Below, piece after piece: positions 21,680 through 24,802 of a stretch of 45,362 bases of DNA. The translations under genes and the position numbers were made by a program. Location of the stretch: positions 1-45,362 of the forward strand of contig NZ_ASSJ01000052.1 of the NCBI RefSeq assembly GCF_000473895.1. The letters run 5' to 3'. The DNA comes from Rubidibacter lacunae KORDI 51-2 (lineage in GTDB: Bacteria; Cyanobacteriota; Cyanobacteriia; Cyanobacteriales; Rubidibacteraceae). Below the pieces are notes generated by a model that was not told where the DNA came from, searched no databases, and was given only the letters and a program-made list of their open reading frames with translations. The number at the start of each line of letters is the position of its first letter. Within the stretch, counting starts at the first letter, position 1.

Positions 21680-22312
21680 CAGCAGGGCTTGCTTCTGGCG
21701 ATCGCTCGGACTGATTTTTTTTAGCGCGGTGTTTACAGGTTGCAAAGACTTGTAGGTACCGCGCTTGCTTTAGGCAAAAGTTATTTAACACCTCTAGAAG
21801 GAGCTCGCGCGCCCTACCTATTCCATGCGAATGCAGTTGCAAATCGTCCCAATGGATAGGGGACAGCTCGATTGCACGCGATTGCCACCTCGGATAGCCT
21901 GGCGCGTAGGGAGGGTTAGTGGCAGCGATCGCAAGAGCACACGACTTTGCCAGCACTAACCGCAAGAGCTCATTGCCCAGAATTCAGGGCTGAGGTACTA
22001 TTTAGTGCGCTTGCCAAGCGGCCCGTTTATTTTCGTTGCCGTTCTGCCCAGGTACGCAAAGAATGTTAAATTTTTATTAAACAGGGCGTTGATTCTCGCG
22101 TGCTGCAGCCGCAGACCTGTTGGGTGAACGATGACAGCTGCTGGCCTGGCAATACCTGCTTAAGTTCGTCTCGATTCGATCGCTAAGGCAACCCCTGCAG
22201 TTGCGGTAGCTGATATTGACCTCTCCTGCGCGCCAGCCTCGGCAAATTGTTCGGGGCAACCAGCCGAGCGAAGAGGGCAAGCAGTTTAGGTAGGAGGAGT
22301 TAGGAGACTGTC
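21680..22312. other. Gap between DAHP synthase and the kai cluster
   Basis: About 630 bp with no convincing gene. It includes a T8 run at 21715-21722 that may belong to a weak terminator, and near its end two Shine-Dalgarno-like sequences (AGGAGG at 22292-22297 and AGGAGA at 22302-22307) just before the kaiA coding region. Any kai promoter would lie here. Confidence 0.4.
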
Positions 22313-22388
22313 GTGCCTCCACTGCATTGCCTCTTCCGAAGTTCTAGCCCCTCTACTCCAACTCATCGAGCAATCCAACTACATTGGC

Positions 22389-22778
22389 GTGTACCATAAG
22401 CGCAACCAGCAGGAGTTTTATCGCAATCTTTCCAAAGCCGAGCGAGACCATCTCCTCAGCCAGATGCAAGCGGACTATCGGCAGGTCGTGCTCGGTTACT
22501 TCACCGGCGAGCAGCGGGCTAATAGCTGGATCGACCGTTTTGTCAACCGCGCTTTTTTCGCCGACCTCTCTGTTTCGCAAATTATGGAACTGCACATGGA
22601 GTTGATGGACGAGTTTTCCCAACAGCTCAAACTAGAGGGGCGCAGCGATGAGGTGTTACTCGACTATCGCCTGACGCTCATCGACGTCATCGCACATTTG
22701 TGCGAGTTATATCGTCGCTCAGTGCCCCACGAAGGGTCGGCTGCCGCTGATCCGCACGCAGAATGTTATGAGCGTTGA
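22389..22778 (+). CDS. kaiA: Circadian clock protein KaiA, short form (C-terminal domain only)
   Basis: Stimulates KaiC autophosphorylation by binding its C-terminal tail. Only the C-terminal helical-bundle domain is present: YHKRNQQEFYRNL, FVNRAFFADLSVSQIMELHM and ELMDEFSQQLKLEGRSDEVL, then YRLTLIDVIAHLCELYRRSVP, closely matching the last 100 or so residues of Synechococcus KaiA. The N-terminal pseudo-receiver domain (about 135 residues) is absent, as in the short KaiA of Nostoc-type cyanobacteria. The GTG at 22389 gives 129 residues but has no good ribosome binding site. The frame stays open to 22290, and upstream residues LIEQSNYIG look like continued KaiA homology, so the real N-terminus is uncertain. 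First gene of kaiABC. Confidence 0.9.
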   Translation: MYHKRNQQEFYRNLSKAERDHLLSQMQADYRQVVLGYFTGEQRANSWIDRFVNRAFFADLSVSQIMELHMELMDEFSQQLKLEGRSDEVLLDYRLTLIDVIAHLCELYRRSVPHEGSAAADPHAECYER

Positions 22779-22837: not shown

Positions 22838-23137
22838 ATGACCCCTTCTCGCAAGACTTACGTTCTAAAGCTTTACGTCGCCGGCAATACGCCTGATTCA
22901 ATGCGGGCACTGACGACATTGCAGCAAATCCTCGAAAGCGAGTTTAAGGGGGTTTACGCATTAAAAGTCATCGACGTGCTAAAAAACCCGCAACTTGCTG
23001 AAGAAGATAAGATTCTAGCAACCCCAACACTAGCAAAGGTTCTCCCTCCTCCAGTTCGCAAAATCATCGGTGACTTGTCAGACCGCGAGAAAGTGCTCAT
23101 CGGATTGGATTTGCTGTACGAGGAGATCGGCGAATAA
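22838..23137 (+). CDS. kaiB: Circadian clock protein KaiB
   Basis: Thioredoxin-like, fold-switching clock protein that binds the KaiC CI ring and sequesters KaiA. 99 residues: [20 protein letters not shown], then [20 protein letters not shown] and [21 protein letters not shown], then a C-terminal acidic stretch (LLYEEIGE). All standard KaiB blocks are present, including the cis-proline region and the [10 protein letters not shown] segment. It starts 59 bp after kaiA and is followed by kaiC after 93 bp. Confidence 0.98.
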
Positions 23138-23230: not shown

Positions 23231-24802
23231 ATGAACGTTAGCAACGAAAACGGCAAACACCACGACCGTAATGGCAAAGTCGGCGTCCAGAAGATTCGGA
23301 CGATGATTGAAGGCTTTGACGAGATCAGCCATGGCGGTATTCCTGTCGGACGGACGACACTCGTTAGCGGTACTTCGGGGACAGGAAAGACACTTTTAGC
23401 AGTACAGTTTCTATATAACGGCATCAAGAATTTTGACGAGCCGGGAATCTTCGTTACGTTTGAAGAATCACCGATCGATATCATTACTAATGCCTATAGC
23501 TTTGGCTGGGACTTGCAGGATTTGACCGAACGCGGCAGGTTGTTTATTCTCGATGCATCTCCCGACCCAGAAGGTCAGGAAATTATCGGGAGTTTCGATC
23601 TGTCGGCTCTGATCGAGCGTATTCAATACGCTATCCGGAAATACAAAGCTAAGCGCGTCTCGATTGACTCTGTCACGGCAGTATTCCAACAGTACGAAGG
23701 TGCTTCGGTGATCCGGCGCGAGATCTTCCGTCTATCCGCCCGTCTCAAACAAATCGGTGTATCGTCGATCATGACCACGGAGCGAACGGAAGAATACGGA
23801 CCAGTTGCCCGGTTTGGTGTTGAGGAGTTTGTTTCTGACAATGTCGTAATCGTTCGTAATGTGCTTGAAGGCGAGCGTCGGCGTCGGACGGTAGAAATTC
23901 TCAAACTTCGCGGTACGACCCACATGAAAGGTGAGTACCCTTTCACGATCAACAACAACGGGATCAATATCTTTCCGTTGGGAGCAATGCGCCTCACACA
24001 ACGCTCCTCCAACATACGGATTTCATCGGGAATCAAGACCCTCGACGACATGTGTGGTGGTGGATTCTTCCAAGACTCGATCATTTTGGCAACGGGTGCA
24101 ACGGGGACGGGCAAAACTCTCCTGGTTAGTAAATTCCTACAGGAAGGTTGCCATGGCGGCGAGCGCTCGATTCTATTTGCGTATGAAGAGTCGCGCGCTC
24201 AGCTCTCTCGCAATGCTTCATCTTGGGGCATTGACTTTGAGGAGATGGAAAAGCGCGGTTTGCTGAAACTGATTTGCACTTACCCCGAGTCGGCGGGGCT
24301 CGAAGATCACTTGCAGTCGATCAAATCGGAAATCCAGGAATTCAAGCCAACCCGTATTGCGATCGACTCGCTGTCTGCACTCGCGCGGGGAGTTACGAAC
24401 AATGCATTTCGGCAGTTCGTCATCGGCGTTACTGGTTACGCCAAGCAGGAAGAGATTACTGGTTTCTTTACGAACACGACCGATCAGTTCCTCGGATCGC
24501 ATTCGATCACCGATTCGCATATCTCCACGATTACCGACACAATTATTATGCTGCAGTACGTCGAAATCCGCGGCGAGATGGCGCGGGCTATCAACGTATT
24601 CAAAATGCGCGGTTCCTGGCATGATAAAGGTATTCGCGAATACGTTATCAGTCGCCAAGGACCAGATATCAAAGACTCGTTCCGTAACTACGAACGCATT
24701 ATTAGTGGCGCACCGACGCGAGTAACAGCAGACGAGAAGAGCGAGCTCTCGCGGATTGCTAAGGGCGTTCGCGATATCACCGTAGAGGAACGTCCAGAGT
24801 AG
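23231..24802 (+). CDS. kaiC: Circadian clock ATPase/kinase KaiC
   Basis: Core oscillator: a two-domain RecA-like hexamer with ATPase, autokinase and autophosphatase activity. CI domain: Walker A GTSGTGKT (47-54), catalytic Glu78/Glu79 (FEES). CII domain: Walker A GATGTGKT (289-296), Glu319/Glu320 (AYEESRAQL), and the phosphorylation pair Ser432/Thr433 in ITDSHISTITDTI, one residue offset from Ser431/Thr432 of Synechococcus. The C-terminal A-loop/tail region (RVTADEKSELSRIAKGV) that KaiA binds is intact. 523 residues, full length. Nothing suggests loss of function, so the short KaiA has an ordinary partner. Confidence 0.98.
   Translation: MNVSNENGKHHDRNGKVGVQKIRTMIEGFDEISHGGIPVGRTTLVSGTSGTGKTLLAVQFLYNGIKNFDEPGIFVTFEESPIDIITNAYSFGWDLQDLTERGRLFILDASPDPEGQEIIGSFDLSALIERIQYAIRKYKAKRVSIDSVTAVFQQYEGASVIRREIFRLSARLKQIGVSSIMTTERTEEYGPVARFGVEEFVSDNVVIVRNVLEGERRRRTVEILKLRGTTHMKGEYPFTINNNGINIFPLGAMRLTQRSSNIRISSGIKTLDDMCGGGFFQDSIILATGATGTGKTLLVSKFLQEGCHGGERSILFAYEESRAQLSRNASSWGIDFEEMEKRGLLKLICTYPESAGLEDHLQSIKSEIQEFKPTRIAIDSLSALARGVTNNAFRQFVIGVTGYAKQEEITGFFTNTTDQFLGSHSITDSHISTITDTIIMLQYVEIRGEMARAINVFKMRGSWHDKGIREYVISRQGPDIKDSFRNYERIISGAPTRVTADEKSELSRIAKGVRDITVEERPE

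Follow-up and report, generated by a model that had tools for sequence, protein, structure and literature searches.

The sole kaiA gene of Rubidibacter lacunae lacks the N-terminal pseudo-receiver domain (PsR) and is thus not of the double-domain type. This loss is real, and the point at which the conserved sequence breaks off is sharp. As judged from the sequence, the gene is best explained as a lineage-specific single-domain KaiA, from which the PsR was deleted and in which the C-terminal dimer domain was left, and it probably still works. By the KaiA tree, the loss of the PsR appears to be separate from that of the known single-domain KaiA proteins, for which a size range of 89–202 residues was given in PMC8113500. 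The R. lacunae gene falls within this definition (C-terminal domain, no PsR), both when counted from the GTG at 22389 (129 codons) and as a whole frame (162 codons).

The kaiA locus and its conserved C-terminal domain

The window, i.e., the whole analysed stretch of 45,362 nucleotides, is contig C52 of the R. lacunae KORDI 51-2T assembly (4,153,658 bases in 99 contigs; 99.6% complete). The features of the locus are listed in Table 1. The first ATG, GTG or TTG codon in the kaiA frame is the GTG at 22389.

Table 1. Coordinates of features at the kaiA locus of R. lacunae (positions within the window).
Feature	Position	Strand	Basis or remark
Open frame with kaiA	22290–22778	+	162 codons; TAG 22287–22289 just upstream
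Purine-rich AGGAGGAGTTAGGAGA with two Shine–Dalgarno-like motifs	22292–22307	+	Read directly from the sequence
LSCLHCIASSEVLAPLLQLIEQSN, perhaps left over in frame from the PsR N-terminus (suggestive)	22308–22379	+	Mixed test results
Out-of-register frame of 28 codons that overlaps GTG 22389	22313–22399	+	Non-coding codon usage; stop TAA 22397–22399
QLIEQSN replacing the linker KLKERLG; conservation break point	22359–22379	+	2/7 identical; alignment
Conserved KaiA part, Tyr (166 of S. elongatus) to stop	22380–22778	+	Pfam KaiA 7e-57; PDB 4g86 alignment
First GTG of the KaiA frame (Val169 of S. elongatus), possible start	22389–22391	+	Alignment
C-terminal domain proper (S. elongatus 180–283)	~22422–22733	+	Domain limits from PMC6378743
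kaiB	22838–23137	+	Pfam KaiB 7.2e-30; 88–90% identity to five family genomes
kaiC, with conserved C-terminal tail	23231–24802	+	Pfam KaiC 2.4e-124; tail alignment

The predicted protein belongs to the KaiA family (PF07688), with a score of 191 bits against the curated cut-off of 22.2 (E 7e-57). Its residues 24–148 align without gaps to residues 159–283 of the S. elongatus KaiA chain in PDB 4g86, whereby the dimer domain (180–283) is complete in R. lacunae. All five sites named fully conserved in PMC8113500 (M241, D242, E251, L265, and D267) are kept within the same ungapped alignment, in the motifs MELMDEF, EGRS and DYRLTLIDV. The mean identity of the domain to 59 KaiA proteins from outside the family was 0.638, with 0.625–0.665 obtained by the same measure for four full-length family members and 0.604 and 0.565 for the family pseudogenes of G008 and G001, respectively. 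Conservation by position was compared with 62 of the 69 full-length KaiA and the S. elongatus protein, the 7 sequences with no recognisable C-terminal end being omitted. The R. lacunae protein departs from the consensus at 5 of the 48 positions conserved at 95%, two of which precede Tyr 22380, and the other intact members depart at 4 at most; in the 90% set, it departs at 7 of 57 positions, a number that 2 of 63 others get to. Most substitutions at these conserved sites are mild (I to V, M to L, and one Y to H). The 129 codons are free of stops and frameshifts, so that the conserved domain does not have the marks of a pseudogene, and their codon usage is coding-like (score 44.5). In the AlphaFold model, pLDDT was below 50 at residues 1–31 and 149–162; between them, read by tens of residues, it was mostly 76–94.

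The partner genes kaiB, kaiC, and sasA are all intact, SasA having its KaiB, HisKA, and HATPase domains. The alignment of KaiC tails was made with that of G001 missing. A second, longer KaiB-like protein, whose KaiB domain is C-terminal, is encoded at locus L123 (65–628).

Loss of the PsR and the break in the linker

A PsR profile built from 16 sequences was searched in nine family genomes, that of R. lacunae (G000) included. It gave E-values of 2.8e-44 to 3.1e-48 in the five genomes keeping the PsR, half a domain in G005 (6.9e-13), and none in G000, G003, and G008; the best match in the R. lacunae genome had an E-value of 0.57, i.e., no PsR was found elsewhere in it. A move of the domain to another genome site was rejected by this search. 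Its erosion in place upstream of the gene (21680–22289) was likewise rejected, 44 of 100 shuffles scoring as well. Together with the intact C-terminal domain, the absence of a PsR from both gene and genome bears out the original prediction of a kaiA reduced to its C-terminal part.

The position of the break was located by comparison with full-length KaiA (n = 69, deduplicated, with 11 short or partial frames excluded). The linker KLKERLG, which precedes GYLGVYYKRN, keeps 6–7 of its 7 positions in 67 of these relatives; the remaining 2 scored 0/7, and there the pattern may have hit the wrong place. In R. lacunae, its place is taken by QLIEQSN, identical at 2/7 positions, so conservation ends at Tyr 22380. 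The end of the upstream piece had been predicted to correspond to the linker before the C-terminal domain. Indeed, YIGVYHKRN matches the sequence of the relatives, but the KLKERLG that should stand before it is gone.

The beginning of the same piece had been likened to the start of full-length KaiA, and this likeness proved marginal. With an N-terminal profile and affine gaps, scores as good as that of the R. lacunae piece were reached by 134 of 1000 shuffles and by 221 of 4531 33-mers from the window. With linear gaps, optional frameshifts, and a low gap cost, none of 120 shuffles and none of 150 random pieces did so in a first run. In a fuller run at four settings, the numbers were 5, 65, 9, and 20 of 1000 shuffles, and the control block mid3 from the end of the PsR did equally well (5, 19, 9, and 19 of 1000). 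A frameshift profile of the whole PsR was equalled by 8 of 400 shuffles, with its best place at the N-terminal block. The best Smith–Waterman match among 70 PsRs was the N-terminus of the family pseudogene in G001; shuffles were as good in 15 of 1000 cases against G001 alone, a figure that rose to 48 of 1000 when the best of five family PsRs was taken and to 295 of 1000 with the best of all 70. Alignment of the 5' ends as DNA gave no signal (143 of 500 shuffles as good within the family, 318 of 500 with all sequences). Overall, the chance rates for a remnant ranged from below 1% to 30%, depending on the method.

Scored in the KaiA frame, the codon usage of 22308–22388 ranks in the 20th percentile among coding pieces; 4.5% of shifted pieces and 24% of those from outside long frames score higher. 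For the whole of 22290–22388, it falls to the 4th percentile of coding pieces. The chances that 22308–22379 holds a visible scrap of the lost PsR N-terminus are, from these comparisons, about even. The in-frame deletion of the middle part, as originally proposed, is plausible rather than proven: the coding-like usage of 22308–22388 and the whole-PsR comparison speak for it, but the other tests stayed at or below the level of chance.

Relatives, phylogeny, and known single-domain KaiA

The family search yielded eight other genomes, none of them of the genus Rubidibacter. Four have a full-length kaiA, three a broken one, and one lacks kaiA, kaiB, and kaiC. The short form of R. lacunae occurs in 0/8 of them; the same short gene with conserved start signals, which would have spoken against a deletion scar, was looked for in these genomes and not found. 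The full-length genes of the Halothece-like G002, G004, G006, and G007 share the gene order and the C-terminal domain with R. lacunae (59–65% identity) but keep the PsR, the linker, and a TTG codon lying 12 nt upstream of the conserved Leu. The broken genes of G001, G005, and G008 are damaged at the same locus. In G001 (L031, minus strand), a full-length kaiA carries two frameshifts, and kaiB is gone with kaiC present. In G005 (L032), kaiA has an internal deletion and a stop, and kaiB is cut to about ten codons, which run into kaiC at about its codon 413. In G008 (L033, 2177–2521; genome 85% complete), kaiA has no PsR, begins at KRDP, and contains an in-frame TAA, with kaiB and kaiC intact. 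These three genes carry frameshifts, stops or deletions within the C-terminal domain, damage that is absent from the gene of R. lacunae. G008 represents a second loss of the PsR, with a break point differing from that of R. lacunae. In G003 (2.2 Mb), neither kaiA, kaiB nor a close kaiC was found, and there was one weak KaiC-like match (E 5e-4).

On a broader scale, KaiA was matched in 57 of 60 genomes (R. lacunae included), most open frames being of about 275–380 codons, and in 283 of 292 genomes drawn from the order. Among the matches listed from the latter draw, read by eye, all except the window's own have open frames that run to 276 codons or more. Scanning viral contigs revealed no relative, and scanning genome contigs yielded 39 loci, none from a second Rubidibacter; records of or close to the window's own genome may have been left out there.

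The KaiA tree had 66 rows after thinning of close copies, included nine single-domain sequences, and was built on few columns. R. lacunae was placed with the Halothece-like family members (support 93/81), apart from the nine single-domain sequences; many forks were open, and within these limits common descent with the single-domain forms of Nostocales and Chroococcidiopsidales was not recovered. The R. lacunae branch is long (0.83), with its sister members at 0.67–0.80 from the same node, and G001 stands elsewhere on a long branch. The single-domain KaiA described for these two orders (PMC8113500) have the same composition, a C-terminal domain without a PsR adjoining kaiB and kaiC. In comparison, R. 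lacunae groups with the full-length KaiA of its own family, and its linker is broken at another point, the short KaiA of L038 and L039 keeping KLKERLGY or KLKARLGY. The name 'Rubidibacter' is absent from the main text of PMC8113500 and PMC5520375; supplementary tables may list the gene without remark.

KaiA homologs of 56 residues were reported, with KaiC present and no KaiB, for the halophile genomes QH_1_48_107 and QS_7_48_42 (PMC8113500). They are shortened frames apparently from the same family. In G001, likewise with KaiC and no KaiB, the stretch from GTG to stop is also of 56 codons; however, it is the middle of the frameshifted full-length pseudogene. We infer that both genomes are of the same lineage as G001. 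The fit in length suggests that the published short homologs are pseudogene fragments.

If the reading of the R. lacunae gene is true, single-domain KaiA had a separate origin in a family that also has full-length, broken, and absent kaiA. Because of this mixture, relatives could be compared for what becomes of a clock once its redox-sensing input domain is lost. High salinity was reported to weaken the rhythm of Halothece (PMC9374696), which offers a testable reason for a relaxed need for the clock.

Start site and activity of the short gene

Twelve nucleotides ahead of the conserved Leu, 53 of the 69 full-length relatives have a TTG codon, 4 a GTG, and 3 an ATG. The TTG starts of these genes mostly have no Shine–Dalgarno-like motif. 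In R. lacunae, no ATG, GTG or TTG occurs in the KaiA frame between 22290 and 22389. Direct reading gives a perfect AGGAGG at 22292–22297 and AGGAGA at 22302–22307, and the candidate starts of KaiA are CTG 22308, with AGGAGG before it, and GTG 22389.

In the preferred reading of a working single-domain KaiA, a deletion reaching to Tyr 22380 would have taken out both the PsR and the linker, with the complete C-terminal dimer domain left in a single open frame. With roughly equal chances either way, this deletion was in frame and left some 20–25 old N-terminal codons (22308–22379), and the original start, which is TTG in most relatives, was lost. Translation would then begin at one of the two candidate codons. 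The short KaiA of Anabaena is reported to form dimers, to stimulate KaiC, and to give rise to oscillations in Synechococcus (PMC8064755, citing other work). By analogy, the R. lacunae protein would still dimerise, bind the KaiC tail, and stimulate KaiC phosphorylation, but it would no longer receive the quinone and redox input with which the N-terminal domain is credited. The 7e-57 match to the C-terminal domain, its identity of 0.638, the conserved KaiC tail, the intact SasA, the confidently modelled domain, and the 93/81 grouping argue for this explanation. The lack of a canonical upstream start, the extra departures at conserved sites, the long branch, and the three family pseudogenes argue against it. 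A wider scenario is put forward more tentatively, as somewhat less than probable: the clock would be dismantled stepwise in the family, with R. lacunae representing the stage that directly follows an in-frame deletion, whereby the first 20–25 kaiA codons were joined to the C-terminal domain at the shared Tyr codon and a single-domain KaiA arose independently of Nostocales.

The main rival to a working gene is early decay, whereby the deletion and the lost start codon silenced kaiA with its C-terminal frame still free of stops. It was raised in the original prediction and is possible but unlikely. The broken kaiA in three of the eight other family genomes, the complete lack of kaiA, kaiB, and kaiC in G003, and the 283 pseudogenes counted in the R. 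lacunae genome (PMC3910548) are all consistent with it, as are the missing ATG, GTG or TTG starts before 22389 and departures at conserved sites more numerous than in other intact members. The C-terminal domain itself, however, shows little sign of decay: its 129 codons are open with normal overall conservation, identity lies within the range of the full-length family members, codon usage is coding-like, and the changes are mostly mild. Moreover, kaiB, kaiC, and sasA are intact.

A sequencing or assembly artefact is improbable. The genome is a 454 draft of 30x assembled with Newbler 2.3 (PMC3910548), so an erroneous base could mask a start in frame with GTG 22313, or misjoined contigs could have cost the assembly the PsR; the best start signal does lie one base out of the KaiA frame. 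Against this, runs of equal bases are no longer than 2 between 22308 and 22343. Errors of 454 sequencing fall in longer runs. Furthermore, the PsR is nowhere else in the 99.6% complete assembly, and the frame from GTG 22313 is non-coding in its codon usage throughout.

The coordinates originally given for AGGAGA, GTG 22313, and the 28-codon frame, with its TAA overlapping GTG 22389, were confirmed. The proposal that translation of this short leader frame is coupled to that of a KaiA with its start at GTG 22389 was not upheld and is the least probable of all: AGGAGA lies five bases upstream of GTG 22313 and the leader stop overlaps the GTG 22389 region, but the arrangement is seen in no relative, short frames commonly overlap by chance, and the leader ranks lowest among coding pieces in codon usage (score −12.1, at or below all those sampled; the fraction of coding pieces that score as low is 0.00, and 78% of the shifted ones score as high). 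GTG 22389 and the 28-codon frame were accordingly rejected as evidence, the former being an ordinary codon at a conserved internal valine that is GTG in 23 of 68 full-length relatives.
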